Positions 21,814-37,084 of a stretch of DNA of 64,000 bases are shown here, one piece after another (the stretch's first letter is position 1; the number at the start of each line of letters is the position of its first letter). The translations under genes and the position numbers were made by a program. The notes beneath the pieces are model-generated. The model did not search any database and was not told where the DNA came from. It saw nothing but the letters and a program-made list of their open reading frames with translations. Origin of the DNA: Arthrobacter sunyaminii. GTDB taxonomy: Bacteria > Actinomycetota > Actinomycetes > Actinomycetales > Micrococcaceae. Location of the stretch: assembly GCF_018866305.1 (NCBI RefSeq), contig NZ_CP076456.1:930001-994000 (forward strand), in the 5' to 3' direction.

Positions 21814-21828
21814 TCCCGCTGGCCGGGA
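21814..21828. promoter_or_regulatory. TCCCG-N5-CGGGA palindrome, site A
   Basis: Perfect inverted repeat TCCCG CTGGC CGGGA, 70 bases ahead of the FAD-dehydrogenase start at 21899. It matches the palindromes at 29368, 33289 and 33335 and (one mismatch) 37070, all in promoter gaps of the steroid island. Proposed operator of the island regulator. Confidence 0.65.
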
Positions 21829-21898
21829 CTGGCGCGGACGTGTTCCTCCTTCGTGTGCCTAAGTAGCCCTACGAATGGCCAAACGAAGGGGCTCGAGG

Positions 21899-23380
21899 AT
21901 GAGCGCGCAAAAAGCTGCAGGACCGGTGGACTCCCGCGAGGCGGACCCGGCGGATTACGAGACGGACGTGCTGGTGATCGGTTACGGCTGCGCCGGTGCC
22001 GCGGCTGCGCTTGAAGCGCGGGCGCTGGGTGCCGAGGTAATTCTCCTGGAGCGGGCGGGCGGGGGAGGCGGCTCGTCAGCCCATTCCGGCGGTGAGATTT
22101 ATCTGGGCGGCGGCACGCCGATCCAGCAGGCCTGCGGGTTCACCGATACTGCGGGGGACATGGAGGCCTACCTGCTGGCGGCACTGGGGCCAAACGCCGA
22201 CGCCGAGAAAATCCGCCTCTACTGCGAAGGCAGCCTTGAACACTACGAGTGGCTGAGCAGCCGCGGCGTCCCGTTCAAACCCTCACTGTGGGACAGCCCG
22301 TCCTGGGTGCCGCCCACCGACGACGGACTGATGTGGCTGGGCGAAAACGCCATGCCCTTTGCTGCCCTGGCAAAGCCGGCACCACGCGGCCACCGGGTTA
22401 CCTCGGAAGGTTACGGCGGCAAGGTGTTGATGAAGGTCCTGGCCGAGGCCGTGGATGAGGCGGACATCCCGGTCCACACCGATACCTATGCCGGGCAGTT
22501 CATCCTCGACGGCGGCACCGTTGCCGGCGTCGTCGCCACCCGTTTCGGAAAGACGGTGACCTACCGTGCCCGCCGCGGCGTCATCCTGGCCACGGGCGGC
22601 TTTGCGGACAACGCCGAGATGGTGGCCCTGCACGCCCCGCGGCTGACCGGGCTGGGGGTAACCAGCGACGGCGGCGATGACGGACACGGAATCCGCATGG
22701 CCCAGGCGCTCGGTGCCGGCACTGCACGGATGTCCTCCGCCCAGGTGGGAATCACCCTGATCCCGGGGCTGGTGGTGCGCGGCATGCTGGTCAACGCCGT
22801 CGGGCAGCGGTTCATCAACGAAGACCAGTATCCCGGGCTGCTCGGACAGGCCGCCCTGTTCAAGCAGGACCTGGCAGTCTGGGTCATCCTGGATGAGAAG
22901 GCCTACGAGGAAGTTCCGGAACAGGAGCGCTGGGGCGTGGTTCCGCATTTCGCGGCGGAGACCGTCGAAGAACTCGAACAGGAAGTGGGTATGCCGGAGG
23001 GTTCGCTGACAGGAAGCGTGCGCGAGTACAACCGGCATGCGGCGGCGGGGGAGGACCCGTACTTCTTCAAAAACAAGCGCTGGCTGCGGCCCTTGGAGCC
23101 GCCGTTTGCCGCCATCGACGTCCGCCGCGGCATGACCGCTCCGGAATCGGGTTCCGCCGGCGGAGGCGGTGCGAGCGTCTTCACGCTCGGCGGACTGCAA
23201 ACCGGTCCGGACGGCGAAGTGCTGGACGTCTCCGGGGTACCGGTTCCCGGTCTCTACGCTGCCGGCCGCGCCACCGCCGGGATCTACGGACAGGGGTACA
23301 TCAGCGGCACTTCCCTCGGCGAGGGTACGTTCTTCGGCCGGCGTGCCGGTGCAGCCGCAGCTGCAGTGCCGGGGCGGTGA
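21899..23380 (+). CDS. FAD-dependent dehydrogenase, 3-ketosteroid dehydrogenase/fumarate reductase-like
   Basis: Flavoprotein of 493 residues from the ATG at 21899, which has AAGGGG seven bases ahead; an upstream ATG at 21875 lacks a ribosome site. The FAD-binding motif DVLVIGYGCAGAAAALEA lies at about 22-39, and the C-terminal FAD cap PGLYAAGRATAGIYGQGYISG near 455. The family includes fumarate reductases, KstD and 3-ketosteroid delta4-(5-alpha) dehydrogenases. Preceded by operator site A and followed at 28 bases by a thioesterase gene, it probably joins the steroid regulon. A delta4-dehydrogenase role is possible but not shown by any residue I can point to. Confidence 0.75.
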   Translation: MSAQKAAGPVDSREADPADYETDVLVIGYGCAGAAAALEARALGAEVILLERAGGGGGSSAHSGGEIYLGGGTPIQQACGFTDTAGDMEAYLLAALGPNADAEKIRLYCEGSLEHYEWLSSRGVPFKPSLWDSPSWVPPTDDGLMWLGENAMPFAALAKPAPRGHRVTSEGYGGKVLMKVLAEAVDEADIPVHTDTYAGQFILDGGTVAGVVATRFGKTVTYRARRGVILATGGFADNAEMVALHAPRLTGLGVTSDGGDDGHGIRMAQALGAGTARMSSAQVGITLIPGLVVRGMLVNAVGQRFINEDQYPGLLGQAALFKQDLAVWVILDEKAYEEVPEQERWGVVPHFAAETVEELEQEVGMPEGSLTGSVREYNRHAAAGEDPYFFKNKRWLRPLEPPFAAIDVRRGMTAPESGSAGGGGASVFTLGGLQTGPDGEVLDVSGVPVPGLYAAGRATAGIYGQGYISGTSLGEGTFFGRRAGAAAAAVPGR

Positions 23381-23408
23381 GAACCGGAGCCTGTGCTAGA
23401 AACAAACC

Positions 23409-23876
23409 ATGAATAAAACCCCGCAGGTCATCCGGTGTTCCGTCGGCATGCGCTGGGGGGACATGGATGCTTACGGGCACGTGAACAACGTGGAAATCCT
23501 GCGGATTCTCGAAGAAGCCCGGATCCACGCCTTCGGCCCGCCCGGCGGTACCGGCGGGCCGGGGCGGGAACCCGTCGTCGCACTCTTCAACAACGTGCCC
23601 GAGGGCACCCAGGCGCTGGTGGCGGAGCACCGGGTGAAGTACCTTTCGCCCCTGACCTACCGCAACATCCCGGCCGAGATCGACGTCTGGATCAGCGCCC
23701 TGAAGGGGGCCAGCCTCACCATCGCCTATGTCATCAGCGATCCCGTAACAGCGGAAACCTGCGCCAAGGCGGAGACCACCCTCGCTTTTGTCGACGCCGC
23801 TTCCGGGCGGCTGCTGCGGATCGCCCCGGACCAGAAGGCCCTCATGCTGCCCTACCTCGGGGCATCAGTGTTCTAA
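23409..23876 (+). CDS. Hot-dog fold acyl-CoA thioesterase
   Basis: 155-residue thioesterase of the 4-hydroxybenzoyl-CoA thioesterase/YbgC type. The active-site strand MRWGDMDAYGHVNNVEI (about 14-30) carries the conserved Asp, the Gly-His and the Asn-Asn. It probably hydrolyses an acyl-CoA in the cytoplasm. Set between the FAD dehydrogenase and the double TetR gene on the same strand, it may free CoA trapped in a steroid- or aromatic-CoA intermediate (inference). Confidence 0.85.
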   Translation: MNKTPQVIRCSVGMRWGDMDAYGHVNNVEILRILEEARIHAFGPPGGTGGPGREPVVALFNNVPEGTQALVAEHRVKYLSPLTYRNIPAEIDVWISALKGASLTIAYVISDPVTAETCAKAETTLAFVDAASGRLLRIAPDQKALMLPYLGASVF

Positions 23877-23981
23877 ACGGTATCGCTGGCCGGGATTGCC
23901 CCTGACGAGCCGGCGGTGCTGTGTAAGGATGGAGGGCCGAGGCCGAAACGGGTTTGGAACCGGAGAACATTGGGTGGGGTA

Positions 23982-25286
23982 GTGGCGCAGCGCAAGACGG
24001 ACCGGAAGAACCGGCAGGGTGAACAGACCCGCGAACGGATCCTCGAAGAGACCATGCGCCTCGCCGCCCGCCACGGCTATGAGGGAACCAGGATCTCCAT
24101 GGTCCGCAAAGCCACCGGCTTGTCCGCCAGCTCCATCTACTGGCACTTCTCGGACAAGGAGCAACTCATTGCAGCGGCCCTGGAACATGCCATTGGCACT
24201 CACCTGCAGACGATCCCCACGTGGCCGGAGTTTTCTTCCGGCGAAGACCGCAGCGCCGAGTTGTATGAGCAGATTTTCCAGTGGCCCCGTGAGGACTTTT
24301 GGCGCTTCGGGCTGCAGATGGCTGTGGTCCGGCCTCCGGAGGAGTCTCCGGCCAGGGACAGGTTCCTGGAGATTCGCCGGGAAAGCATCGACTGGCTGGC
24401 CCGCTGGTGGAAACCCAGCCTGCCGGAGCAGATGGAGCAGCGGGGGATGGGATCGGTGCTGCTGGGCAGCCTCACGTTCGCGGTCCGGGACAGTTACTTT
24501 CTCCGGCGGCATGCCGGGCGCCAATTCGACGAGAACCGCATCACCTGGATGCTGGCGCTGTCCGTGGATGCGATGGCTGACCGTCTGGGGGAGCTGGCAG
24601 GGGAGGCCCCGATCGCCATTGAAGGGGAACCACCGGCACAGGCCGTGGAGTGCGCCGGCACGCAGACCGGACGCCGGGCCTTCCTGCAGGCTGCAGAGGA
24701 CATCATCGCCGAATTCGGGTACGACGGCGTCACGGTAGCCCGGGTTTGCGAACGCGCCGAGTTGCCGGCCAGCTCGCTCTACTGGTTCTTCAAAGACAAG
24801 GACGACCTCGTGGCCGAGGTGGTGGCCGGAGCCGTGCAGAATTGGGAAGCGGCCCGGCTGGACCTGACCGGGCAACGGGCGCAGGGGGACTGGACGGTGC
24901 CGCTTCGCGGCCAGCTCCGTGGTGTGCTCGAGGGGACCGCCGCCGGAACCGGGATCCTGCGGCTGGGCCTGCTGCTCCTGCTCCAGGACGGCAACCGAAC
25001 CTCCCCCGGCGTGCAAAGCCTGGAGACGGTGATGGAGAACATGCAGAGCATCACGACGGACTGGTTCTCCGCGGTGCTGCCGGACACGGAAAGCGAAGAA
25101 CAGCGCACCGAGCTGGCGGAGTATCTGTCCGAGTGCCTCTTCCGGTTCCTGGAAGGCCTGATGCTCGCCAGGCAGATCGACGCCCATTCCTGGGAACCGG
25201 GACTGCTGGCTGATTTGTTGGCCGTGGGTCTGCACCGGGCAGTTGAGAAGCTGCTGGCAGGATCGGCAGCTCCCGCCGGGCGCTGA
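23982..25286 (+). CDS. TetR-type regulator with two DNA-binding domains
   Basis: A single chain of 434 residues (from GTG 23982) containing two complete TetR N-terminal domains. The first, about 17-63, has ILEETMRLAARHGYEGTRI and ATGLSASSIYWHFSDKEQL. The second, about 230-277, has FLQAAEDIIAEFGYDGVTV and AELPASSLYWFFKDKDDL. Each is followed by its own helical ligand-binding-type domain, so the protein resembles a covalent TetR dimer. Start is uncertain: TTG 23970 after GGAG is an alternative, and an ATG at 23916 would add 22 atypical residues. It ends three bases from the convergent hsaB and is a candidate reader of the TCCCG-N5-CGGGA sites. Confidence 0.85.
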   Translation: MAQRKTDRKNRQGEQTRERILEETMRLAARHGYEGTRISMVRKATGLSASSIYWHFSDKEQLIAAALEHAIGTHLQTIPTWPEFSSGEDRSAELYEQIFQWPREDFWRFGLQMAVVRPPEESPARDRFLEIRRESIDWLARWWKPSLPEQMEQRGMGSVLLGSLTFAVRDSYFLRRHAGRQFDENRITWMLALSVDAMADRLGELAGEAPIAIEGEPPAQAVECAGTQTGRRAFLQAAEDIIAEFGYDGVTVARVCERAELPASSLYWFFKDKDDLVAEVVAGAVQNWEAARLDLTGQRAQGDWTVPLRGQLRGVLEGTAAGTGILRLGLLLLLQDGNRTSPGVQSLETVMENMQSITTDWFSAVLPDTESEEQRTELAEYLSECLFRFLEGLMLARQIDAHSWEPGLLADLLAVGLHRAVEKLLAGSAAPAGR

Positions 25287-25289
25287 ACC

Positions 25290-26477
25290 TCAGGCGTCGG
25301 CTACCGCACCAATGGCCTGCGCCGCAGCCTGCATTTCCTGGGCCAGTGCCTGGATCCGGGACGCCTCTGCATTCCGGGGCAGATTGGCGACGCGCAGCAC
25401 CAGCCGGACCTTCCCTGCGGCGTCAAAGACGGGCGCGAGCAGGGAATCGACGTCGTACGTCCGCCCTTCCTCCAGCTGCACCGGAGCGTAGCTGTTGGAG
25501 GTGCGGGAGATGATCTCGCGGATTTCGCGTTCCTGGGCCGGGGTGTAGGTGCCGGCGGAGTACTCGCGGAGGGCCTCGAAAACCTGCTCGTCCCGGTAAC
25601 CGCCCCGCATGGTGATGGACCAGCCGCGCTGACGCACTGCTTCCAGGCGCCCCCGGTACTCGTCCGGGGTGCATTCGTCGCTCGGCAGGGCACGGGAGAG
25701 CCAGCGGTCGATGGTCTTCGGGTCTTCCCAGGCCAGGCAGAGTTCACCCATGGGCGGCATCAGCGGAATGCGTTCTCCGAGGCGGTCGTCCTGTTCCGGA
25801 GCCGTGCCGGCGGCGGCGACTATGACCGCCAGCTGATCGCTGATGACGGCCATGGCTGTGCACTCGGCTCCCAGCTCGGCGGCGAGCCGCTCCATTTCGT
25901 TCCGTCCCCGCTCAGCCAGCCGAACGCCGGCTATCAGGTCCGCGTCGAAAGGCGCGCTCAGCGACATGGGGGCAAACCGTCCGTACCCGCCCTGGAAGAA
26001 CAGCAGCGGCGCCACCGGGCTGCACACCTGCAGCTCATGGACCGCGCCCAGGACAATGTAGTGGTCACCGGCGTCGTTGATTGAATCGAAGGTGCAGTCG
26101 ATGTAGGCCACCACCCCGTCCAGCACCGGCGCGCCGAGCGGCGACGGCCGCCAGGACAAGCCGTCGAACTTGTCAGCGGACTTGCCGGCAAAGCGGCGGC
26201 ACAGGTCCTCCTGGTCCGCGGCCAGCACATTGACGCAGAAGGAACCGGCCGTGCGGAGCTTGCTGAAGGTCTGCGACGCAACGGTGGGCAGGAACGCCAC
26301 CAGCGGCGGATCCAGCGACACCGAGGTGAAGGAACCCACGATCATGCCCACCGGTTCGCCGTCCTCAGCCATGCCCGTAATCAGAACCACGCCGGTGGGG
26401 AAGTGGCCCAGCACGTTGCGGAACACCATCGGATCGCTCGTGAGGGGCCGCTGTTGTTCCATGCTGATTTCGGTCAT
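25290..26477 (-). CDS. hsaB: Flavin reductase HsaB fused to an IclR-type ligand-binding domain
   Basis: The N-terminal 165 residues are a flavin reductase (FRNVLGHFPTGVVLITG, IVGSFTSVSLDPPLVAF, GSFCVNVLAADQ, HYIVLGAV), the partner that supplies reduced flavin to the HsaA oxygenase. Residues 170-395 instead resemble the effector-binding domain of IclR regulators (AVISDQLAVIVAAAG, GERIPLMPPMGELCLAW, then YAPVQLEEG and a C-terminal helix), with no DNA-binding part. Stand-alone HsaB proteins are about 190 residues, so this is a fusion. ATG at 26477 has AAGGAAA ahead. Last gene of hsaE-G-F-B. The domain may gate reductase activity by a steroid metabolite. Confidence 0.85.
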   Translation of the reverse strand: MTEISMEQQRPLTSDPMVFRNVLGHFPTGVVLITGMAEDGEPVGMIVGSFTSVSLDPPLVAFLPTVASQTFSKLRTAGSFCVNVLAADQEDLCRRFAGKSADKFDGLSWRPSPLGAPVLDGVVAYIDCTFDSINDAGDHYIVLGAVHELQVCSPVAPLLFFQGGYGRFAPMSLSAPFDADLIAGVRLAERGRNEMERLAAELGAECTAMAVISDQLAVIVAAAGTAPEQDDRLGERIPLMPPMGELCLAWEDPKTIDRWLSRALPSDECTPDEYRGRLEAVRQRGWSITMRGGYRDEQVFEALREYSAGTYTPAQEREIREIISRTSNSYAPVQLEEGRTYDVDSLLAPVFDAAGKVRLVLRVANLPRNAEASRIQALAQEMQAAAQAIGAVADA

Positions 26478-26509
26478 TGTGTTTCCTTTCCAAATGCTGT
26501 GGGACGGGG

Positions 26510-27517
26510 TTACTTCTGAGCGAGCAGGTCCAGAGCCACGTCCACGATCATGTCTTCCTGACCGCCGACCATGCGCCGCTTGCCCAGCTCCATCAGGATG
26601 TCCGTGGTGGGGATGCCGTAGCGGGTGCTGGCCGTTTCCGCGTGCCGCAGGAAGCTGGAGTACACCCCGGCGTAGCCCAGCGACAGGGTCTCGCGGTCCA
26701 CCCGGACGGGGCGGTCCTGCAGCGGGCGCACCAGGTCGTCGGCGGCGTCCATCAGCGCCGGCAGGTTGCAGCCGTGGTCAAGCCCGAACTTGTCTGCAGC
26801 GGCAATAAACGCCTCCAGCGGAGCATTTCCGGCTCCTGCTCCCATGCCGGCCAGGGACGCGTCCACCCGGTTGGCGCCGTGTTCCACGGCGGTGAGGGAG
26901 TTCGCCACCGACAGCGAGAGGTTCTCATGGGCGTGAATGCCGATTTCAGTGGCCGGATCCAGCACCTGACGGAAGGCATCAACTCGTTCGGCTACGCCGG
27001 GCATGGTGAGGGCTCCGCCGGAGTCCACAACGTACACGCAGGTGGCTCCGTAGCTCTCCATCAGTTTTGCCTGCTTGGCGAGTTCGGCAGGCGGACTCAT
27101 ATGGGACATCATCAAAAAGCCCACGGTGTCCATGCCCAAATCGCGGGCGGCACCGATGTGCTGCGCGGACACATCGGCCTCGGTGCAGTGGGTGGCCACA
27201 CGCACCACCGACGCTCCGGCGCTGTTGGCGTCCTTGAGATGGTGGATGGTGGCGATGCCGGGCAGCGCCAGCGTGGCAACCTTGGCCTGTTTGACGGCCC
27301 CCGCAACCGCGGAAATCCATTCCAGGTCCGTGTGGGCACCGAAGCCGTACACGCAGGAGGAGCCGTTGATTCCGTCGCCGTGCGCAACCTCGATGGAGGC
27401 GACGCCGGCGGCGTCCAGCGCGGTGGCGATGGCGACGGCCTGGTCCACCGTGTACTGGTGCCGGATGGCATGCATGCCGTCACGCAGGGTGACGTCGGAG
27501 ATGTAGAGCCTGCTCAT
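26510..27517 (-). CDS. hsaF: 4-hydroxy-2-oxoacid aldolase HsaF
   Basis: Metal-dependent class II aldolase (335 residues) that splits 4-hydroxy-2-oxohexanoate or -valerate into pyruvate and an aldehyde, which is channelled to HsaG. The active-site strand [15 protein letters not shown] is at about 8-22, with the HxH-type metal region [16 protein letters not shown] near residue 195. The ATG at 27517 has AGGAGG seven bases ahead. It follows hsaG by two bases, in the usual aldolase-dehydrogenase pairing. Equivalent to BphI/MhpE/DmpG; HsaF is chosen from the steroid context. Confidence 0.9.
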
Positions 27518-27519
27518 GG

Positions 27520-28494
27520 TTATGCCTCCTGCATCGCCGCGGCGATGTGTTGTTCTTGTACTCCGCCGCGTTCGGCCCACCGCTCGGCGACGGCCATGGC
27601 GGCGGAGGTCATGATGTCCAGGTTGCCCGCGTAGGCGGGAAGATAATGCGCGGCGCCGGTCACCTCCAGCATCACTGTGACCCGGGTGCCGGTGAAGCTG
27701 CCCGTGCCCGGAATGTGCAGGGCATTCTCCGGGCCGAAGGTTTCAAACTGCACTTCCTGCTTGAGCTTGTATCCGGGAACGTACTCCTGCACCTGTGCGG
27801 CCATGGCTTTGACCGACGCCGCGATGGCGGCATGGTCCGTTTCACCGTCGACCAGGCAGTACACCGTGTTCCGCATCATCATCGGCGGCTCGGCGGGGTT
27901 CATGATGATGATGGCCTTGCCTTCGGCCGCACCTCCGACCTCAACCAGGGCGCGGGAAGTGGTCTCGGTGAACTCGTCGATGTTGGCGCGGGTGCCGGGA
28001 CCGGCGGAACGGGAGGCAACGGAGGACACGATCTCCGCGTAGCGCACCGGAGCCACCCGCGTGACGGCAGCCACCATGGGCACCGTGGCCTGTCCGCCGC
28101 AGGTGACCATGTTCAGGTTGGCATCGTCCAGATGGTCCTCAAGGTTCACCACGGGGACGCAGTAGGGGCCGACGGCGGCCGGTGTCAGGTCCAGCACGCG
28201 GACGCCGGTGTCCTTCAGCAGGTCCCAGTTGGTGAGGTGGGCGGAGGCGCTGGTGGCATCGAAGACCACCTTGATGTCCTTGAAGTTCGGCAGGTCAAGC
28301 AGGCCCTGGATGCCGTCGGCAGTAGTGGGAACGCCCATGCTGGCGGCGCGCCGGAGCCCGTCGGACTCCGGGTCGATGCCCACCATGGCGCCCATTTCCA
28401 GCCGCTTGGCCCCGCGGAGCACCTTGATCATCAGATCGGTTCCGATGTTGCCGGAGCCGATGATGGCCACCGGCCAGAGTTCGTTGGTTCCCAC
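27520..28494 (-). CDS. hsaG: Acetaldehyde/propionaldehyde dehydrogenase (acylating) HsaG
   Basis: CoA-dependent dehydrogenase of 324 residues that turns propionaldehyde (or acetaldehyde) from HsaF into propionyl-CoA with NAD. It has an N-terminal Rossmann motif [12 protein letters not shown] (10-21), the catalytic Cys132 in [11 protein letters not shown], and a late [15 protein letters not shown] stretch typical of BphJ/MhpF/HsaG. The GTG start shares one base with the hsaE stop (TAGTG), so the two genes are coupled. Confidence 0.92.
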
Positions 28495-29309
28495 TACTTC
28501 TCCTCATGTTTGATGCGGACCTGTCCAAGTCCCTGGATGTTCACTACTGCGTTGGCGCCGGGCGGAAAGGCGACCATGGGGCCGAGGGCGCCGGTCATCA
28601 GGATTTCGCCGGCCTTCAGCGGCCGTTCCAGCTCCGCCATGCGCCTCACCAGCCAGAGGGCGGCACGGTAGGGATGGCCCAGGCAGGCAGCGCCCGAGCC
28701 CACTGATTCCACGCTGCCGTTGACTTCCATGACCATGCCGGCGGCCGCCAGGTCAATCGACGACGGCGCGACGGGCCTGGTGCCGGTCACTATCTGGCCG
28801 CTGGACGCGTTGTCGGCGATGGTGTCCAGGATGGAGATGTCCCAGTTGGTGATTCTTGACCCGACAATCTCAATAGCCGGAAGCAGGTAGTCCACGGCGG
28901 CGATCAGCTCGGTGAGCGTGGTATCCGGCTCGGGGAGGTCCCTTTTCAGGACGAGGGCAACTTCGGCTTCCACCCGCGGCTGCAGGACTGCCCCGGCAGC
29001 CAGCGCTTCGCCGTCGGCCAGGCACATGTCGGCAAAGAGAACGCCGAAGTCCGGCTGGTCCACGCCCATCTGCGCCTGTACGGCCCGTGACGTGAGCCCG
29101 ATCTTGCGCCCCACCACGCGGCGGCCCTCGGCGATCCAGGCGTCCTCGTTGGTCCGCTGGACGTCGTAGGCCGCGCTGATGCCGCCGTCTGCGAGCAGGT
29201 CGCGGATCGGCTCAATCGGCGTTCCGTCCCGCTCTGCACGGCGCAGGCGTGCGGCCAATTCTGCAATGCCTGCCGGATAAGCAGGTGCAGTCTCGATGGT
29301 TGCAGTCAT
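28494..29309 (-). CDS. hsaE: 2-hydroxy-dienoate hydratase HsaE
   Basis: Hydratase of the fumarylacetoacetate-hydrolase-like family, 271 residues. It adds water to 2-hydroxyhexa-2,4-dienoate, the small product of HsaD, to give 4-hydroxy-2-oxohexanoate. It shows the family metal-site segments [12 protein letters not shown] (about 105-116), [11 protein letters not shown] (about 140-150) and LTGALGPM-like [12 protein letters not shown] near 250. The ATG at 29309 follows GGGAGG; the TTG four codons earlier would overlap that site. First gene of hsaE-G-F-B, with operator and CRP-like sites upstream. Confidence 0.9.
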
Positions 29310-29367
29310 CTGTCCTCCCAAGTGAGCCTTCAGTATTGCGCCGATGAGCTGTCCTGCCCCGGGGCAG

Positions 29368-29382
29368 TCCCGAAGAGCGGGA
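29368..29382. promoter_or_regulatory. TCCCG-N5-CGGGA palindrome, site B
   Basis: Perfect inverted repeat TCCCG AAGAG CGGGA, 58 bases ahead of hsaE and in the divergent gap to the IclR gene. Part of the five-site set. Confidence 0.65.
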
Positions 29383-29433
29383 TGGGAGAAGGGTGGTGCA
29401 AATCCTGTAGCGATGTGTACAGTGAAGCTCTCA

Positions 29434-29449
29434 TGTGCGTTAGCTCACA
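29434..29449. promoter_or_regulatory. CRP/GlxR-like binding site
   Basis: TGTGC GTTAGC TCACA differs at one base from the CRP/GlxR consensus TGTGA-N6-TCACA, and the symmetry extends one more A/T pair on each side. It lies between hsaE and the IclR gene, 125 bases from hsaE, and suggests cAMP-linked control of the island. Confidence 0.5.
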
Positions 29450-29553
29450 TAGTTTTTGTGGTCCATAGATGTGCCAAGGAGGTCCCAGCTAATGAATGTT
29501 CCCTGTTGCAGGTTCCGCCGGCGTTCCGCCGGTGTCTCCTTCGGGCGGTGCCG

Positions 29554-30369
29554 ATGAGTGTTTCCCTGACTGCACCCCCTGTTGCCTGGCCTCCGGCTCC
29601 CTCCGGACCGCCCCCGGCAATGGCGGCGCGGATGACGCTGATCATGGAGGTGTTCGATTCACGCTCCGTCCGGCTGCTGCTGGACGAAATAGCGTCCAGG
29701 ACGCGCCTGCCGCGCTCCACCACGCACCGGATCCTGGATCAGCTGGTGCAGCTGGGCTGGCTGGAACACACGCCCGACGGCTACGGCATGGGCTGGCGCT
29801 CGCTGCAGTTCGGCGGCTTGGACAACGGAAACAGCCGGATCCGGGCTGAGGCCGCGCCCCTGCTGCACAGCCTGCAGATACGGACCGGAATGGTGGTCCA
29901 CCTGGCCGTCCTCAACGGCACCAACATCCATTACCTGGACAAGGCCGGCGGCCGCTCGGCCACCTCGGTGCCGTCCCGGGTGGGCGGCAATGCTCCGGCC
30001 CATGCAACGGCACTGGGAAAGTCCATGCTGGCCTGGATCAACCCCGAGCAGCTGGACGAAATGTTCCGGCACGGACTGTCCGCCAACACGCCCCGGACCA
30101 TCAGGGATGTCCCCGCGCTGTACGCGGAGCTGAACCGGATTCGCCAGCGCGGCGGGCTGGCGTACGAATCCGGTGAGAGCTACGAGGGTATCTCCTGCGT
30201 GGCCGCGGCCATCCGCAACCGGCGGGAGCCGGTGGCAAGCATTTCCCTGGTGGGCACCGCCGGGGATCCGATTGAACGTGTCGCTCCACTGGTCCTGGAT
30301 GCGGCACGCCGCGTGTCAGCAGCGCTGTTTCCCGGTGACCTGCCCCAGGACCGGTATTCCGGGTCCTGA
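29554..30369 (+). CDS. IclR family transcriptional regulator
   Basis: 271 residues from the ATG at 29554; the reading frame extends further upstream but through Cys-rich sequence unlike the family. The N-terminal winged helix is at about 28-85 (SVRLLLDEIASRTRLPRSTT, then HRILDQLVQLGWL). The effector-binding domain has NIHYLDKAGG, AHATALGKSMLAW (about 150-162) and YEGISCVAAAIRN. Divergent from hsaE, so likely to control the hsa genes, with a ring-cleavage intermediate as possible ligand. The fused domain of HsaB belongs to the same effector family. Confidence 0.87.
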   Translation: MSVSLTAPPVAWPPAPSGPPPAMAARMTLIMEVFDSRSVRLLLDEIASRTRLPRSTTHRILDQLVQLGWLEHTPDGYGMGWRSLQFGGLDNGNSRIRAEAAPLLHSLQIRTGMVVHLAVLNGTNIHYLDKAGGRSATSVPSRVGGNAPAHATALGKSMLAWINPEQLDEMFRHGLSANTPRTIRDVPALYAELNRIRQRGGLAYESGESYEGISCVAAAIRNRREPVASISLVGTAGDPIERVAPLVLDAARRVSAALFPGDLPQDRYSGS

Positions 30370-30381
30370 GCGCCCCGGAAC

Positions 30382-30420
30382 GGCACACGGGTCCAGGCGT
30401 GTCGCTTGGACCCATGTGCC
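30382..30420. terminator. Hairpin between convergent IclR and NTF2-like genes
   Basis: GGCACACGGGTCCA (30382-30395) and TGGACCCATGTGCC (30407-30420) make a 14-bp stem with one mismatch around an 11-base loop. No T-run follows on either strand; it is placed to end both genes. Confidence 0.55.
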
Positions 30421-30452
30421 TGTCCCCGGGAGTTCTCACTGGACCGGGTTGC

Positions 30453-30923: not shown

Positions 30924-30948
30924 GGGGTTCCTTAAACGGGGTTCCTTA
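30922..30948 (-). repeat. Duplicated ribosome-binding segment
   Basis: ACGGGGTTCCTTA occurs at 30922-30934 and 30936-30948. On the coding strand this gives two copies of TAAGGAACCCCGT, the nearer placing AAGGA five bases ahead of the GTG start of the NTF2-like gene. Confidence 0.75.
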
Positions 30949-30960
30949 CAGCGATTGAAT

Positions 30961-31021
30961 GCCGCCGCCCGTCGGGCGGAGGAAGCACCACGTCGCTTCC
31001 TCCGCCCGACGATGGGCGGCG
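30961..31021. terminator. Long inverted repeat after hsaC
   Basis: The arms 30961-30986 and 30995-31021 pair over about 24 bases (inner core GTCGGGCGGAGGAAGC with GCTTCCTCCGCCCGAC) around an eight-base loop. It lies 10 bases after the hsaC stop, read leftwards, and probably ends the hsaA-hsaC message or protects its 3' end. No T-run. Confidence 0.6.
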
Positions 31022-31030
31022 TCCTGTTTC

Positions 31031-31957
31031 CTAAACGGCAGCGCGTTTGGGGACAAACGCGGCCAGCGGCTCGTGCGCGGCTGCGGAGTGATCATGGCCC
31101 CAGTAGCTCTCGGCCGTGATCTCCTCGGCGGTGAAATAGGTTTCATCCACCAGCATGCCCTCGGTGCCGTACTCGATGTCCCAGCCCCCGGGCGCCCGAA
31201 CGTAGAAGGAAACCATCTTGTCGTTGGTGTGGCGTCCGAGTGAAGCCGAGAGAGTGAAGCCCTGCTTCGTGACCTTGTCCAGCGCCCGCCCCACGGTGTC
31301 CAGGTCCTCGACCTCAACCATCAGGTGCACCAGACCCGGAGCATCGGCATGCGGTGCGCCGCCGATGGCCAGGCTGTGATGGCGCTGGTTGACGCCGAAG
31401 AACCGGAACCGGTTGGCCGGGCGCTGCGGGCCCAGCCGCACTGCGCCGCGGGGCAGGAAGCCCAGCACATCGGTGTAGAAGGACGTGGTTTCCTCCATGG
31501 CCATGGTGGGCAGGACAACGTGGCCCATGCCCTGCGCACCGGTGACAAATTTCTGCGCGTAACCGGTCTTCAGGATGCTGTGGTCCAGACGGGGGCCGAA
31601 GAAAACTTCGACCGGAGTTCCACCCGGATCGGCGAAGGTGATGACCTGTTCCAGACCGCGCAGGTCCGCTTCTTCCTCGTTGAGCCAGGTGACGGCAATG
31701 CCGGCCGCCTCCACGTCCCTGGCCACCTGGGCCAGGGCGAACTGGTCGCGGACTTCCCAGCCCACGGCCAGGACCCGGTCGGAAGTTCCCGGCAGCACGA
31801 TCAGGCGCGCTTCCCGTTCGTCCATGCGCAGGTACAGGCCGTCGGGGTCCGGTCCCACGGCCTCGGCGAAGCCGAGACCTTCGACGGTGAGTTCACGCCA
31901 GCGGTCAATGTGCTCGGTCTGGACCTTGAGATAGCCCAGTCCTCGAATATGAGTCAT
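31031..31957 (-). CDS. hsaC: 3,4-DHSA extradiol dioxygenase HsaC
   Basis: Fe(II)-dependent type I extradiol dioxygenase, 308 residues, two vicinal-oxygen-chelate domains. It cleaves the catechol ring of 3,4-dihydroxy-9,10-secoandrosta-1,3,5(10)-triene-9,17-dione. The iron ligands are visible as His146 (GMGHVVLP), His211 (LVHLMVEV) and Glu262 (DIEYG); active-site His195 (RHHSLA), His243 (GRHTND) and Tyr252 also fit the BphC/HsaC pattern. Lies 62 bases after hsaA on the same strand. Confidence 0.92.
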   Translation of the reverse strand: MTHIRGLGYLKVQTEHIDRWRELTVEGLGFAEAVGPDPDGLYLRMDEREARLIVLPGTSDRVLAVGWEVRDQFALAQVARDVEAAGIAVTWLNEEEADLRGLEQVITFADPGGTPVEVFFGPRLDHSILKTGYAQKFVTGAQGMGHVVLPTMAMEETTSFYTDVLGFLPRGAVRLGPQRPANRFRFFGVNQRHHSLAIGGAPHADAPGLVHLMVEVEDLDTVGRALDKVTKQGFTLSASLGRHTNDKMVSFYVRAPGGWDIEYGTEGMLVDETYFTAEEITAESYWGHDHSAAAHEPLAAFVPKRAAV

Positions 31958-32019
31958 GGTGTTCCTTGCCTTGCTGTTGTGTTGAGGGTTGTTGCTGTAT
32001 CCGGAGGTTTCCCGGCGGG

Positions 32020-33204
32020 TTAGACCATGGCGGCCAGGTTTGCCGGCGGTTCCACGCCCAGCTCCGTGAGGACGGCTGCGTGGTAGGTGGGGCCGGGCAC
32101 GTGGATGGCGTGGGCAAGGCCCATGTGGGCGTCGCGCCAGAATCGCTGAATCGGGTTGTTCATCCGCAGCCCGTTGCCGCCGGAACGGGACAGGATGGTG
32201 TCTACGGCGGCGACGGCCCGCCAGGCAGCCTGGATCTGGGTGCGGCGCCCCACGGCGCGCTGCTCAAGGCTGATCTCACGGCCGGCAGCCGCTGTGTCAT
32301 AGATCCTGCTGATGTTGTCCAGAACTGCCGACCGGGAGGCCCGGATTTCTCCGGCCGCCTCGCTGACCGCGTACATCGAGTACGGATCCTCGACGCTCTT
32401 GAATCCGTTGACCTGCATTCGGTCGCGCTGGTAATCCAGGTGCGCGTGCAACGCTCCTTCAGCGATGCCCACCACTGCGGAGGTCAGGCCGAGCGGAAAC
32501 AGGCTGTAGAACGGGATGCGGTGAATGGGGTCGGTCTTGCCGGCATCGCGTGCCACTTTGCCGCTGAACAGGTCGGCCTGGTTGATGACCCGGTACTCGG
32601 GAACAAAGACGTCCTTGATGATGACGTCTTTGCTGCCCGTGCCGCGCAGTCCAACCACGTCCCAGGAGTCTTCAACGATGGTGTAATCAGCGCGGGGGAC
32701 AACCACGTGCACTGATTCATAGGGCATCAGGGGTTTGCCTTCGGCGTCGCCGATGAATGCTCCCAGGATGACCCACTGTGCATGGTCGGTGCCGCTGGAG
32801 AACTGCCAGTGCCCGGTGAACCGGTAGCCGCCGTCGGTCGGGATGACAACGCCCATCGGCGCGTAGGGGGAGGACACCCAGGTGTTGTCGTCCGCTCCCC
32901 AGATTTCTTCCTGGAGCTTCGGAGCCATGAGCTCCAGTTCCCAGGGATGTACGCCAACGACGCCGGCCACCCAGCCCGCTGCTCCGTCCAGGCTGGCGAT
33001 CTTCATGACCGTCTCGGCAAATTCCGTGGGGTGCGCCCGGGTGCCGCCGTATTCAACGGGGGCAAGCAGCTTCATGACACCGGACTGGCGAAGGATGTCC
33101 ACGGTGGCGTCATTGAGCTTTCCCAGGTCTTCGTTGGCCTGGCCGTAAGAGCGCAGCTCTTCGCCGCGCTCGGTCAGCACATCGGAATTTACAGTGGTTG
33201 TCAT
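32020..33204 (-). CDS. hsaA: 3-HSA hydroxylase oxygenase component HsaA
   Basis: Flavin-dependent monooxygenase with the acyl-CoA-dehydrogenase fold (group D), 394 residues, which uses reduced flavin from HsaB to hydroxylate the phenolic ring of 3-HSA to a catechol. Family marks include DILRQSGVMKLLAPVEYGG (about 36-54), WQFSSGTDHAQWVILGA (about 133-149), DVVGLRGTGSKDVI (about 178-191) and the C-terminal HMGLAHAIHVPGPTY. The ATG at 33204 is preferred over an earlier frame start at 33252. First gene of hsaA-hsaC, divergent from hsaD-kshB across two operator palindromes. Confidence 0.92.
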   Translation of the reverse strand: MTTTVNSDVLTERGEELRSYGQANEDLGKLNDATVDILRQSGVMKLLAPVEYGGTRAHPTEFAETVMKIASLDGAAGWVAGVVGVHPWELELMAPKLQEEIWGADDNTWVSSPYAPMGVVIPTDGGYRFTGHWQFSSGTDHAQWVILGAFIGDAEGKPLMPYESVHVVVPRADYTIVEDSWDVVGLRGTGSKDVIIKDVFVPEYRVINQADLFSGKVARDAGKTDPIHRIPFYSLFPLGLTSAVVGIAEGALHAHLDYQRDRMQVNGFKSVEDPYSMYAVSEAAGEIRASRSAVLDNISRIYDTAAAGREISLEQRAVGRRTQIQAAWRAVAAVDTILSRSGGNGLRMNNPIQRFWRDAHMGLAHAIHVPGPTYHAAVLTELGVEPPANLAAMV

Positions 33205-33288
33205 TGCTGCTTCTCGCTTCCTCGTCAGGGCTTGTACTCCGCCTCTGTGCAAAATCTAGGGTCCTTCGACAAGGGGGAGCCCGGGATG

Positions 33289-33303
33289 TCCCGGTCACCG
33301 GGA
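33289..33303. promoter_or_regulatory. TCCCG-N5-CGGGA palindrome, site C
   Basis: TCCCG GTCAC CGGGA, a perfect 15-bp palindrome apart from the central base, in the hsaA/hsaD divergent gap. An extra CGGGA half-site lies at 33282-33286. Confidence 0.65.
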
Positions 33304-33334
33304 TTGGCGGCTCGGCCGCGGCACAGGCAACCCA

Positions 33335-33349
33335 TCCCGGTGATCGGGA
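33335..33349. promoter_or_regulatory. TCCCG-N5-CGGGA palindrome, site D
   Basis: TCCCG GTGAT CGGGA, 46 bases from site C centre to centre, in the same hsaA/hsaD gap. The paired spacing could allow binding by two regulator molecules, one for each divergent promoter. Confidence 0.65.
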
Positions 33350-33425
33350 TCTGCGTGGCCGCATACCGGGGGACTGTTTATGGTTCAGGAAGACCGAAGA
33401 GATTCGTACATGAGGAGCCTGAGAA

Positions 33426-34325
33426 ATGACCACGGACCTTCGCCATGAAGAGGGCAGTGCAGCCCGGACCGGCAACGCAGTGCTGCGGGAGCTGCAGACC
33501 GGCAACGGCGTGCTGCGCTACCACGAGGCAGGTGAAGGCCCGCCGCTGGTCTTCCTGCACGGTTCCGGCCCCGGCGTGACCGGCATGGGCAACTTCAAGG
33601 GCATCCTTCCGGCCTTCGCCGCGCACTTCCACTGCTACGTCCTGGAATTCCCCGGGTTCGGCGTCAGCGACCCCTCGGACCTGCATCCCATGCAGGCCGG
33701 CGGGCAGGCCGTCGTCGATCTGGTGGACGGTCTGGGCCTGGACCGGGTGGACATCATCGGCAACTCGATGGGCGGCATGATCGGCACGCGGTTTGCCATC
33801 AACCACCCGGACCGGGTGGCCAAGCTGGTAACGCTGGGCGGCATGGGCGTGAATATCTTCAGCCCGTCCCCCGCTGAGGGGATCAGCCTCCTGATTGCCT
33901 TCACCGAGGACCCCACCCGCGAGCGGCTTATCCAGTGGCTGCAGTCCATGGTTTACGACCAGGAGCTGGTCACCGAGGAGCTGATCAACGAACGCTGGCA
34001 GCAGGCCACGGAACCGAAGACACTGGCCAGCGCCCGCAGAATGTACAGCCGGGCGGCGATGAAAGCCGCGGCCGCAGCTGCTGCTGCCTCCGATGCTGCC
34101 CCGGCCTGGGCACAGCTGCACAAGCTGAAGGCCAAAACCCTGATCACCTGGGGCCGTGATGACCGCGTCTCCCCTCTGGACGGGGTGCTGGTGCCGCTGA
34201 GGACCATTCCCGACGTGGAACTTCATGTATTCCCCAACTGCGGGCACTGGGCAATGATCGAGCAGAAGGCCGCCTTTGAAAGCACCGTACTGGCATTCCT
34301 GCAGCGGGAAGAGGCAGCAGTATGA
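33426..34325 (+). CDS. hsaD: Meta-cleavage product hydrolase HsaD
   Basis: Alpha/beta hydrolase of 299 residues that breaks the C-C bond of the HsaC product (4,9-DSHA) into 2-hydroxyhexa-2,4-dienoate and the C/D-ring acid HIP. Motifs are FLHGSGPGVTGMGNF (about 43-57, oxyanion region), the nucleophile Ser114 in GNSMGG, Asp245 in WGRDDRVSPLDG and His274 in CGHWAMIEQ, all in BphD/HsaD positions. An unusual run of Ala (about 211-222) sits in the lid region. Its stop overlaps the kshB start (ATGA). Confidence 0.92.
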   Translation: MTTDLRHEEGSAARTGNAVLRELQTGNGVLRYHEAGEGPPLVFLHGSGPGVTGMGNFKGILPAFAAHFHCYVLEFPGFGVSDPSDLHPMQAGGQAVVDLVDGLGLDRVDIIGNSMGGMIGTRFAINHPDRVAKLVTLGGMGVNIFSPSPAEGISLLIAFTEDPTRERLIQWLQSMVYDQELVTEELINERWQQATEPKTLASARRMYSRAAMKAAAAAAAASDAAPAWAQLHKLKAKTLITWGRDDRVSPLDGVLVPLRTIPDVELHVFPNCGHWAMIEQKAAFESTVLAFLQREEAAV

Positions 34326-35368
34326 GCACTTTGTCAGTGGTAACGCCCCAACAGGTGAGGGTGGTGGAGGTCATCCGGGAAACGTCCGATGCTCACACGC
34401 TCGTCCTGGAGCCGGAGGGGGAAGTGGGGGATACCTTCAGCTACAAGCCCGGCCAATTCCTCACCCTCCGCATCCCCAGCGACCGTCCCGGCGGCGCAGC
34501 GCGATGCTACTCGCTGTGCAGCTCGCCGCAGCAGGACGAAAAGCTGAAGGTCACGGTCAAGCGCACCCGGGACGGCTACGGATCGAACTGGATCTGCGAC
34601 AACGTAGTGGAAGGCAACGTCCTGGACGTCCTGCGCCCGGCGGGAACCTTCACCCCGACCTCGCTGGACAAGGACTTCCTCCTGTTCGCCGGGGGAAGCG
34701 GCGTTACGCCTGTCATGTCCATTCTGAAGTCGGCACTTGCTGCCGGCAACGGACTGGTGACGCTGGTCTACGCCAACCAAGATGAGTCCTCCATTATTTT
34801 TCGGGATGAGCTCATTGCTCTTTCCAAGCAGCATCCCGGCAGGCTTACGGTTATCCACTGGCTGGGAACCGTGCAGGGGCTGCCAGACCAGCCCTCCATC
34901 GGTGCCCTGGCCGCCCCCTACACAGACCGCGAAGTTTTCATCTGCGGTCCCGGACCGTTCATGGACTGCGTTGCCCAAGCACTGGAAACCCTCGGCCTGC
35001 CGCCGGAGCGGGTCCACATTGAACGCTTCACCTCGCTGGGAACCGATCCCTTTGCTCCGGTGGCTGCCGTGGTTCACGACGTCGAGGGGGAGAGCACGGA
35101 GGTGGAGGTCCAATTGGACCGCCAGACCCGGTCCTTGTCCTGGCCCGGAGGAAACCGCCTGCTGGACGTCCTGATCAACGCCGGCATAGACGCGCCATAC
35201 TCCTGCCGGGAGGGCGCCTGCAGTGCCTGCACGTGCCGCGTCCTCGAAGGCGAGATACGGATGGAAAGGAACGAGGTCCTGGACGCAGCGGACCTCGACG
35301 AGGGGTACATCCTCGCCTGCCAGGCGGTGGCAGTCAGCGAGAAGGTCAGGATCACTTACGACGAGTAG
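34322..35368 (+). CDS. kshB: 3-ketosteroid 9-alpha-monooxygenase reductase KshB
   Basis: Electron-transfer flavoprotein, 348 residues, that passes electrons from NADH to KshA. The domain order is FAD-binding (ARCYSLCSSP near residue 60), NAD-binding (FAGGSGVTPVMSIL near 122) and a C-terminal plant-type [2Fe-2S] domain with CREGACSACTC and a distant Cys in ILACQAV. This order is as in KshB and phenylacetate/HMP-type reductases. Coupled to hsaD by a four-base overlap. KshB is favoured because kshA is on the opposite strand close by. Confidence 0.88.
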   Translation: MSTLSVVTPQQVRVVEVIRETSDAHTLVLEPEGEVGDTFSYKPGQFLTLRIPSDRPGGAARCYSLCSSPQQDEKLKVTVKRTRDGYGSNWICDNVVEGNVLDVLRPAGTFTPTSLDKDFLLFAGGSGVTPVMSILKSALAAGNGLVTLVYANQDESSIIFRDELIALSKQHPGRLTVIHWLGTVQGLPDQPSIGALAAPYTDREVFICGPGPFMDCVAQALETLGLPPERVHIERFTSLGTDPFAPVAAVVHDVEGESTEVEVQLDRQTRSLSWPGGNRLLDVLINAGIDAPYSCREGACSACTCRVLEGEIRMERNEVLDAADLDEGYILACQAVAVSEKVRITYDE

Positions 35369-35408
35369 GTCGATCGCACCCGGCCCATCCCGGCAGCGAA
35401 ACAGCAGG

Positions 35409-35451
35409 GCACTGCCCGGCTCCCCGTGGGGGTGGTCGGGCAGTGCTTTTT
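35409..35451 (+). terminator. Rho-independent terminator of hsaD-kshB
   Basis: GCACTGCCCG (35409-35418) pairs with CGGGCAGTGC (35437-35446), followed directly by TTTTT. It begins 40 bases after the kshB stop. Confidence 0.85.
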
Positions 35452-35477
35452 GCTGAGGAAGCCCAAGGGCACAACAA

Positions 35478-35520
35478 AAGCGGGAGGGATCAGTTCCAGC
35501 TGAACTGATCCCTCCCGCTT
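35478..35520 (-). terminator. Terminator of kshA operon
   Basis: A perfect 19-bp stem (35478-35496 with 35502-35520, outer arms AAGCGGGAGG/CCTCCCGCTT) with a five-base loop. Read leftwards it is followed by TTGTTGT after the closing TT, and lies just past the Cys-rich small gene. Confidence 0.8.
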
Positions 35521-35541
35521 GCCTTTCCAAGCGTCCAGGCG

Positions 35542-35823
35542 CTACGTTTCCGGCACGTCCTTGAAAATCACATCGATCCTGCCTTCCAGGGAAGCATCGC
35601 GGATGGTTGCCGCCAGGGTCCCGCAACCGGCGAACTGCTCCGTTGGGGTGCCGCCGCGGCACGCTAGTGGCCGTTCCAGGCACGCCTTCTGCGAGGTCTC
35701 CTGCCACTGAATGGTGGTTTGTTGCCAGTTCGACTTGCGTACAAGCACAGTGGCAGCACAAGCACTGCAATCCAGTGGCTGCATTGGGTTATCGACGAGT
35801 CGGAGATCGGTCTGTGCTGTCAT
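35542..35823 (-). CDS. Cys-rich small protein coupled to kshA
   Basis: 93 residues, unknown function. It has a CxxC pair (Cys19, Cys22 in LDCSACAATVLVRK) and three more Cys (48, 55, 67), a Trp-rich middle (SNWQQTTIQW) and an acidic, Ile/Val-rich end. Its ATG shares one base with the kshA stop (TAATG), so it is made with the oxygenase. A metal-binding accessory, an assembly factor or a small redox partner of KshA are all possible (inference). Confidence 0.75.
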   Translation of the reverse strand: MTAQTDLRLVDNPMQPLDCSACAATVLVRKSNWQQTTIQWQETSQKACLERPLACRGGTPTEQFAGCGTLAATIRDASLEGRIDVIFKDVPET

Positions 35824-36980
35824 TAGATCAGCTGTCCCTCTGCAGCTCTGCGAAGGGCCAAATTGTCCGCTACTTCCTTCTTCCAGCTCTCATTTGGCCT
35901 GCTGGTGTCCAACTCATGCTCAAAGCGGTCGGTCATCTCGGGCTTGACGTCCGCGACATCCACGAAGAACTGCTCGTACCACCGGCGCAGCTGGTAGACG
36001 GCGCCGTCCTCCTCGCACAGGAGCGGGTTGTCGATGCGGGCCTTGTTCTGCCAGATCTCCACATCCTGGTTGAAGCCGCCCAGGATCCACTGGGCCTGGG
36101 TAGCGGCAATCTGGTCCGGGTCGCCCGGAAGTTCAGGCTTCTTCTCCACGATGATTCCGGACATCAGCACGAAGGAGTTCTCATCAATCGGGTAGTGCGC
36201 ATTGATGAGGACGGTCTTCATATTGAAGGTCTCGTAGATGTACGTCAGGTCGTCGATCATAAATGACGGGCCGTAGTATGAGGCGACCGAACGGGTCTCT
36301 AGCATTTTGGGGGCACTGGGATCGGGGTCTGCTGGAGTCACGTCCTCGCGGGAAATTCCGTCAAAGTACTGGGTAGCGATGTGCCCCTCGAAGACATTCT
36401 TGAAATAGGTGGGGAAGTTTTTGTGGATGTAGAAAAAATGGGCCATGTCGACGATGTTGTCGATGACTTCTCGAGTGCTGGTGTTGACCACAATTTCGTT
36501 CCAGACCCACTTGGTCCAGCCTTCGTCCTCGGCGCCCTCGATGCGGGGGACGACGACGTTCTCCGGCGGCGGATTGCCTTCCGGGTCATTCCAGACGAAC
36601 AGCAGTCCGTCCTGGTCCAGCGTCTGCCAAGTGCTGGTGCGGGCGCGCATGGGCACCCGCCGGCTGTACGGAACGGACTTGCAGCGTCCGTCGCCGCCCC
36701 ATCGCCAGTCATGGAAAGGGCAGGCAATTTCGTTGCCCTTGACCTCACCCAGGGACAAATCCCCACCCATGTGGCGGCAGTAGGCGTCCAACACGTTGAC
36801 CTTGCCGTCGCTACCCGTGAAAATCACCAGTTTCTGACCAAAGGCCTTCACCGTATGCGGCTTGCCGTCCTTGTACTTTTCAGCCAGGCCCAGGCAATGC
36901 CATCCGCGCGCGTAGCGCGTGGGCACTTGGCCTGATTCAATTTGCCTGATCTCGTCCTGGTCTGACTCAACAATGCTCAT
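35823..36980 (-). CDS. kshA: 3-ketosteroid 9-alpha-monooxygenase oxygenase KshA
   Basis: Rieske non-haem iron oxygenase, 385 residues, that hydroxylates C9 of 1,4-androstadiene-3,17-dione-type steroids, which opens ring B. The Rieske ligands are Cys68-His70 and Cys87-His90 in YCRHMGGD and CPFHDWRW. The mononuclear-iron site is in DNIVDMAHFFYIH (Asp178, His181, His186). The N-terminal TRYARGWHCLG and the C-terminal YQLRRWYEQFFVDVADVKPE closely follow known KshA proteins. First gene of a two-gene operon, divergent from the kstD-like gene across site E. Confidence 0.95.
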   Translation of the reverse strand: MSIVESDQDEIRQIESGQVPTRYARGWHCLGLAEKYKDGKPHTVKAFGQKLVIFTGSDGKVNVLDAYCRHMGGDLSLGEVKGNEIACPFHDWRWGGDGRCKSVPYSRRVPMRARTSTWQTLDQDGLLFVWNDPEGNPPPENVVVPRIEGAEDEGWTKWVWNEIVVNTSTREVIDNIVDMAHFFYIHKNFPTYFKNVFEGHIATQYFDGISREDVTPADPDPSAPKMLETRSVASYYGPSFMIDDLTYIYETFNMKTVLINAHYPIDENSFVLMSGIIVEKKPELPGDPDQIAATQAQWILGGFNQDVEIWQNKARIDNPLLCEEDGAVYQLRRWYEQFFVDVADVKPEMTDRFEHELDTSRPNESWKKEVADNLALRRAAEGQLI

Positions 36981-37069
36981 GTGGAACCGTTCCCTTCAAA
37001 TTCACCTGTGCGGTGTCGAACGTCTCGAACCTTGAATTTAGGCACAGGCGTAACCGTGTGAGGGGCCAG

Positions 37070-37084
37070 TCCCGGTGTATGGGA
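37070..37084. promoter_or_regulatory. TCCCG-N5-CGGGA-like palindrome, site E
   Basis: TCCCG GTGTA TGGGA has one mismatch to the consensus seen at the other four sites. It lies in the kshA/kstD divergent gap, 89 bases from kshA and 105 from kstD. Confidence 0.5.

Follow-up and report, generated by a model that had tools for sequence, protein, structure and literature searches.

The window analyzed here, a stretch of 64,000 nucleotides (nt) of Arthrobacter sunyaminii (Micrococcaceae; assembly GCF_018866305.1, contig NZ_CP076456.1, positions 930,001 to 994,000), contains an island of genes for the opening and cleavage of steroid rings, in which the palindrome TCCCG-N5-CGGGA recurs in the gaps before the operons. 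We propose that this palindrome serves as operator for the island's own IclR-family protein (29554-30369) and that a dimer of this protein would bind the copies and control the genes as one steroid regulon, most likely by activation in the presence of an effector. We put the probability of this reading at roughly two in three and infer all three elements, the binding, the activation and the effector, from sequence comparisons. The putative operators are the following:

21814..21828: O1, perfect copy, before the operon of FAD-dehydrogenase, thioesterase and tandem TetR regulator
29368..29382: O2, perfect copy, between hsaE and iclR
33289..33303: O3, perfect copy, hsaA-proximal
33335..33349: O4, perfect copy, hsaD-proximal
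37070..37084: O5, copy with one mismatch, between kshA and kstD

The preliminary description of the window had reported four perfect sites (21814, 29368, 33289 and 33335) and one with a single mismatch (37070); these positions were exact and, as it had claimed, all five sites are located in intergenic gaps ahead of operons. The longest open reading frame (ORF) of iclR opens at ATG 29344 and encloses 29368, but conservation starts only at ATG 29554, which was therefore taken as the start and places O2 in the gap, upstream of the real gene. The expectation of few chance copies per 64 kilobases (kb) was borne out as well: third-order Markov simulations of the window (n=60) gave a mean of 0.42 perfect copies and a maximum of 3. 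At up to one mismatch the window holds 16 matches versus 6.3 expected, a number that was reached in 0 of 100 shuffles. Within the whole genome of 3.9 megabases, 19 perfect copies were found (10 for the reversed-pattern control), four of them inside the 11.5 kb of the island. With the other 15 as background such a cluster has P ~1.5e-7, or ~5e-5 after counting windows.

The genes around the sites were annotated as follows:

21899..23380, + strand: FAD-binding dehydrogenase, KstD-like family
23409..23876, + strand: thioesterase-like protein (weak match, below cut-off)
23916..25286, + strand: tandem TetR regulator with two TetR_N domains (PF00440, two stretches), Mce3R-like layout
25290..26477, - strand: hsaB-like flavin reductase with long C-terminal extension (residues 15-170 match HsaB, below cut-off)
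26510..27580, - strand: hsaF, 4-hydroxy-2-oxovalerate aldolase
27520..28494, - strand: hsaG, acetaldehyde dehydrogenase
28494..29309, - strand: hsaE, 2-keto-4-pentenoate hydratase family (334 bits, cut-off 350)
29554..30369, + strand: iclR, IclR-family regulator with HTH_IclR and IclR_C domains
31031..31957, - strand: hsaC, extradiol dioxygenase (below equivalog cut-offs)
32020..33204, - strand: hsaA, 3-HSA monooxygenase (NF045629, 379 bits, cut-off 450)
33426..34325, + strand: hsaD, hydrolase (NF045632, 282 bits, cut-off 400)
34322..35368, + strand: kshB, reductase (domain content; name from context)
35823..36980, - strand: kshA, 3-ketosteroid 9alpha-hydroxylase (KshA_C)
37190..38743, + strand: kstD, 3-ketosteroid dehydrogenase family (below equivalog cut-offs)

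Since several hsa products score under the equivalog cut-offs, the gene names denote the closest family. The IclR protein scores well over the Pfam cut-offs, with 38.7 bits for HTH_IclR (cut-off 22) and 118.2 bits for IclR_C (cut-off 24); its best NCBIfam match is TIGR02431 (PcaR/PcaU/PobR), at 114.8 bits below the cut-off of 284.75. The HsaB-like protein measures 395 amino acids, and its long C-terminal part, outside the HsaB match, is conserved in relatives.

Conservation of the palindrome in related and distant islands

A match to hsaA (E <= 1e-80) was present in 11 of 395 genomes of the family and one to iclR (E <= 1e-40) in 7 of 197, with Arthrobacter, Paeniglutamicibacter and Glutamicibacter among the named genera. 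Ten of the 11 genomes with hsaA showed the iclR gene directly; for the other (G323) it was read from the near-twin record L029, regarded as an identical or almost identical genome, which represents it below. In L029 the matches to hsaA (12476-13704) and to the FAD-dehydrogenase (2395-3782) are each split into two overlapping pieces, as if frameshifted or misassembled. Conservation was scored over four gap classes in the 11 genomes, in total 43 gap-genome pairs as one kshA/kstD gap was missing at a contig end, and for all 1,024 five-base arms combined with spacers of 0-12. TCCCG with spacer 5 ranked first of the 13,312 combinations, being perfect in 22 of the 43 gaps and having at most one mismatch in 32; as the window counts among the 11 genomes, the test was not entirely independent of the place where the motif was first noticed. 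A site with at most one mismatch was found in 9/11 hsaE/iclR gaps, 11/11 hsaA/hsaD gaps, 9/10 kshA/kstD gaps and 3/11 gaps before the upstream operon. Looking at the individual sites, O2 is perfect in nine genomes and has two mismatches in both Glutamicibacter, O4 is perfect in nine and within one mismatch in all 11, and O5 is within one mismatch in nine of ten and perfect in two. The orthologues of O3 have 0-1 mismatches in four genomes and 2-3 in the other seven.

The second set consisted of 12 loci of one genus, taken to be Nocardioides, of which L037 (Nocardioides sp. zg-DK7169) is a named member. These were the 12 of 20 distant regions that have a close hsaA and were used for ranking (left out were L180, L181, L184, L185, L186, L188, L191 and L192). 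The order of the hsa genes differs in these loci and their iclR is 53-62% identical. TCCCG with spacer 5 again ranked first, over 35 upstream regions, with 15 perfect sites and 24 at no more than one mismatch; upstream of iclR itself such a site occurs in 6 of the 12 loci. The claim in the preliminary description that the sites mark one regulon is thus supported by position-specific conservation, both within the Micrococcaceae and in distant loci.

We furthermore inspected 56 loci of IclR homologues in named genomes, 24 of which have a site with at most one mismatch within 450 base pairs (bp) upstream. The patterns used in the homologue scan included part of the recognition helix, and identity of this helix is therefore not independent evidence. 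Among the Mycobacterium/Mycolicibacterium loci (L065-L078, L080, L082 and L084), 16 of 17 carry such a site just upstream of the iclR homologue, with TCCCGGTGATCGGGA or a variant near 9910 in most. The stretches inspected around these homologues showed no hsa genes, and in most of the loci a neighbouring stretch weakly matches the luciferase-like monooxygenase of the window (20768-21757). In Streptomyces, TCCCACTGATCGGGA (one mismatch) is found upstream of hsaD in 13/13 loci (L041-L047, L049-L054), and the iclR gene is mostly without a site of its own (1/14 has one). In L049 and L054, and less exactly in L050 and L053, imperfect TWCCG-N5-CGGWA boxes lie 21 bp apart upstream of iclR, to be compared with the tandem IclR sites described in PMC8222616. 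Symmetric double changes were observed in two cases, TCTCG..CGAGA (TCTCGGTGATCGAGA, L071) and TTCCG..CGGAA (TTCCGGTCACCGGAA, L187); both arms changing alike is what would be expected for a symmetric homodimer.

Operator position and direction of control

In promoters of Mycobacterium tuberculosis the principal -10 motif is TANNNT (PMC3898074). Hexamers resembling a -10 were found at the following distances from the palindromes in the window:

29332..29337, - strand: predicted -10 of hsaE, AATACT, 30 nt from O2
33253..33258, - strand: predicted -10 of hsaA, TAGATT, 30 nt from O3
33379..33384, + strand: predicted -10 of hsaD, TATGGT, 29 nt from O4
37035..37040, - strand: predicted -10 of kshA, TAAATT, 29 nt from O5
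37114..37119, + strand: weak candidate -10 of kstD, CAATCT, 29 nt from O5

This placement, an element that goes beyond the preliminary description, is kept among the Micrococcaceae at hsaD, hsaA and hsaE. For hsaD, TANNNT begins 29-30 nt past the palindrome in 11/11 genomes (shuffle expectation 0.13 per position, 11 rows), and the same holds for hsaA in 11/11, including the seven sites with 2-3 mismatches, as up to three were allowed at the orthologous place. For hsaE, NATACT is found at 29-30 nt in 11/11, with ATACTG at the same distance in ten and 1 nt less in one. Alignment of the gaps made clear that the distance between the conserved hexamers and the palindrome stays constant while the intervening DNA changes.

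The distant spacing survey comprised 42 hand-picked rows (0-1 mismatch) and 11 Mycobacterium rows, to which six of Mycobacterium were added later. TANNNT stands at 29-30 nt from the palindrome in 13/13 hsaD loci from 12 genomes, namely L191 of another family and 12 loci that belong to the Nocardioides-type genus, counting its named member L037 (rows L037 and L174 being one genome). The hsaD genes of L187 (two mismatches) and L189 (three mismatches, read by eye as the script pattern gave no match) were added separately and both agree. In 10 of 11 surveyed distant hsaD rows an RTG start follows 6-7 nt beyond the hexamer, an arrangement of the leaderless type, by which the transcription start is pinned down. 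In Streptomyces, all 13 hsaD loci show xANNNT at 30 nt (strict TANNNT in none), and eight of them have an ATG at 42-43 nt.

A -10-like hexamer 29-30 nt away places the centre of the operator near -50, outside the core promoter, and such a fixed spacing favours activation; the placement at hsaA, hsaD and hsaE thus suggests that the regulator is an activator. The best -35 matches at these promoters agree in 1-4 of 6 letters (raw counts, without a control). Mechanistically, an IclR dimer would read one palindrome and be centred ~37 bp upstream of the -10 at hsaE, hsaA and hsaD, and often at kshA; near -50 it could assist RNA polymerase, the -35 boxes of these promoters being poor. A steroid-derived effector on the C-terminal domain of IclR would trigger the activation. 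The operators would in this way join hsaE-G-F-B, hsaA-hsaC, hsaD-kshB, kshA and kstD in one regulon of steroid ring opening and cleavage, to which in this genome the FAD-dehydrogenase/thioesterase/tandem-TetR operon would also belong.

Several results weigh against this proposal. In the first place, O1 is the least conserved site: it is perfect in the window and L029 and has one mismatch in L031, and the other 8 of the 11 genomes lack a site of at most one mismatch in the 300 bp that precede the first gene of the upstream operon (L030 has a one-mismatch site ~100 bp ahead of the tandem TetR gene itself). Among the 56 IclR homologue loci 32 are without a site of at most one mismatch in the 450 bp upstream, 21 of them from Streptomyces or Rhodococcus/Prescottella, and none was found in two Frankiales loci from metagenome-assembled genomes with a distant hsaD. 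Neither is the motif exclusive, given that nine of the 15 other perfect genomic copies lie in coding-like ORFs and six outside, so that the motif alone is not specific and is weak evidence elsewhere in the genome. The spacing is not general either: for kshA, TANNNT is found at 28-30 nt in just 5/10 genomes, for kstD strict TANNNT in 0/10 and xANNNT at 28-30 nt in 5/10, before the upstream operon the spacing occurs in 1/3 genomes (L031, not the window), and the strict form is seen upstream of iclR in 0/11 Micrococcaceae and at Nocardioides-type hsaA, hsaB and iclR in 0/10 each. Lastly, 17/17 Mycobacterium loci have TANNNT only 4 nt from the site, which is a repressor-like position.

The latter arrangement looks like autorepression and bears on the strongest alternative, namely that the IclR protein sits on the operators as a repressor until a steroid metabolite releases it. 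Repressors and dual regulators do occur in the IclR family (PMC8222616), and the lack of a fixed spacing upstream of iclR in the Micrococcaceae is compatible with autorepression as well. The operators of hsaE, hsaA and hsaD, on the other hand, are centred near -50, outside the core promoter, and keep their distance though the DNA between varies; we consider general repression unlikely, at about a fifth of the total weight. A dual regulator would fit the activator-like and repressor-like results together.

The candidate reader and its known relatives

The preliminary description named the IclR protein and the tandem TetR protein of the island as candidate readers, of which the former has gained and the latter has lost ground. 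The IclR protein is the likely reader, because the site stays with IclR homologues across families, its arms vary symmetrically and the matches of the tandem TetR protein are partial. A different member of the IclR family could read the sites instead, such as NdgR/LtbR, for which a similar motif, KTYCRSMWYSYGRRM, has been published and with whose consensus 9 of 10 arm positions agree by eye. Considering that the sites accompany the iclR gene into other families, we regard this as improbable.

Slightly less probable still is that the palindrome is read by the tandem TetR protein (23916-25286). The protein is encoded in the island, beside hsaB in 11/11 Micrococcaceae, and its operon bears O1 in the window, but in just 3 of the 11 genomes does a site with up to one mismatch precede the first gene of that operon. 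It shares the two-TetR layout with Mce3R (PDB 9b7y; weak match, E 4e-5, to the first helix-turn-helix (HTH) only), which binds 25-bp asymmetric, non-palindromic sites (PMC11667970). No full-length relative was found in the Nocardioides-type, Streptomyces and Mycobacterium loci bearing the site. In ten genomes of the Nocardioides-type and other families with an iclR homologue and sites the matches are partial, the longest covering 5-208 of 432 residues; nine of the ten give a match at the level of the HTH, some in open frames of 500-600 codons, which could represent a diverged tandem protein. Around the iclR homologues of Streptomyces and Mycobacterium the protein was not seen up to a distance of 10 kb. 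It is thus probably a target, not the reader, of the operator.

Explanations by chance, by a repeat family or by RNA hairpins, for which the 15 further perfect genomic copies (nine coding-like) and a hairpin-like copy before csp might speak, hardly deserve consideration in view of the position-specific conservation in two genome sets and the fixed spacing. That last copy (39674-39688, CCCCGAAAGTCGGGA, one mismatch), ahead of the cold-shock gene csp at 39718, was rejected as a sixth operator: its 14-base core is kept in 26 of 29 genomes of the genus, of which just four had an hsaA match, and it is probably a look-alike, a leader hairpin unrelated to the operator. Upon NCBIfam naming of the six genes near the non-coding copies, only the neighbour of the site at G000:C1:624765 is possibly related (FAD-binding dehydrogenase), and that site lacks, by eye, the 29-30 nt spacing to a -10. 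Outside the island, a perfect site (L006 1501) lies 80 bp upstream of a FAD-binding dehydrogenase ORF of the PRK12834 family. A whole-genome scan with TCCCGGTGATCGGGA at three mismatches yielded 169 + 183 matches, from which the regulon could not be extended.

The preliminary description knew of no regulator with this operator. We likewise found no description of a TCCCG-N5-CGGGA operator in the open-licence literature searched, but the layout is that of the IclR group-1 motif, as in the GTCCG-N5-CGGAC motif given for PobR, beside that of NdgR, in a family-wide study (PMC8222616). By eye, TCCCG differs from the arms of the group-1 motif (KTYCR, spacer 5) at the second base only, and the TTCCG-N5-CGGAA variant of L187 fits them fully. 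Like PobR, PcaU, PcaR and NdgR (PMC8222616), the island protein combines HTH_IclR and IclR_C with a candidate operator in the form of a 15-bp palindrome of 5-nt arms and a 5-nt spacer, and as in their regulons the targets are of an aromatic type and an operator lies beside the regulator's own gene; unlike theirs, its regulon concerns steroid ring cleavage. The words 'steroid' and 'Arthrobacter' are absent from the main text of that study.

The closest published lead is SRTF2, a predicted, uncharacterized and steroid-induced IclR factor in the steroid island of Pimelobacter simplex, whose gene adjoins a ketosteroid dehydrogenase gene and has SRTF1 binding upstream of it (PMC7062782). Judged by description, SRTF2 and the island protein have in common the family and the location within a steroid island with ksh/kstD genes; in the available portions of PMC7062782 we found no operator or target of SRTF2. 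Cluster D of Nocardioides simplex resembles the island in having kshA, kshB, hsaB, hsaC, hsaD and kstD, and has no predicted KstR/KstR2 sites (PMC7807495). The Acin1/Acin3 motifs and SRTF1 (TetR) were assigned to kstD2 of that organism, and the word IclR is absent from the main text (PMC7807495). EdcR of Caenibius tardaugens, like the island system, is steroid-responsive with palindromic operators, but it is a repressor and its operator, TnnCnnTACnAnTnGTAnnGnnA, overlaps the -10 box (PMC8700777).

KstR and KstR2 control the same pathway genes as those of the island, but are TetR repressors. Control by KstR was rejected, as no protein of the genome scores over the KstR cut-off (best 66.6 of 280 bits; KstR2 was not searched for), and the KstR motif, TnnAACnnGTTnnA, does not occur in the window. 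The control of steroid catabolism in actinobacteria has been described mainly via these two repressors, and the evidence speaks for another system beside them, based on IclR, whose operator can be defined and whose promoter rule is simple. The regulon would be a new one of a known kind, and new here is the geometry of operator and promoter. More tentatively, and with somewhat less than even confidence, we suggest that the master switch of steroid ring degradation, in those actinobacteria that lie outside the realm of KstR, is an IclR activator that senses steroids and not a TetR repressor. One grammar (operator, 29-30 nt, -10) would then have persisted at hsaD from Arthrobacter through Nocardioides to Streptomyces although the operons were rearranged, a single dimer may serve both divergent promoters, and the activator would rank above the Mce3R-like tandem TetR protein in a cascade, opposite to the order in which SRTF1 acts on SRTF2. 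The promoter rule eases the prediction of targets, the design of steroid biosensors and a direct test of activation, and the system suggests a role and a candidate operator for uncharacterized regulators of the SRTF2 type.

Further conserved elements were observed in and around the island. The hsaE/iclR gap holds a second palindrome, CTGTA-N8-TACAG (29405-29425, CTGTAGCGATGTGTACAGTGA), which is present in 11/11 Micrococcaceae islands and was the next non-overlapping palindrome in the ranking (perfect in 11); it might be an iclR promoter or serve as the binding site of another factor, possibly the tandem TetR protein. A search of 17 island loci gave no further perfect copy and five copies with one mismatch outside the gap, of which that at L097 5055 precedes a tandem-TetR gene by ~160 bp; the other loci searched have none at up to one mismatch. 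At 29435-29449, GTG-N7-TCACA is likewise present in 11/11 islands; it resembles a CRP/GlxR site and may tie steroid use to catabolite control. Finally, TCCCGGTGGGCGGGA lies ~2.7 kb past kstD in two genera (L101 19276 and L102 18933), where it may mark an additional member of the regulon.

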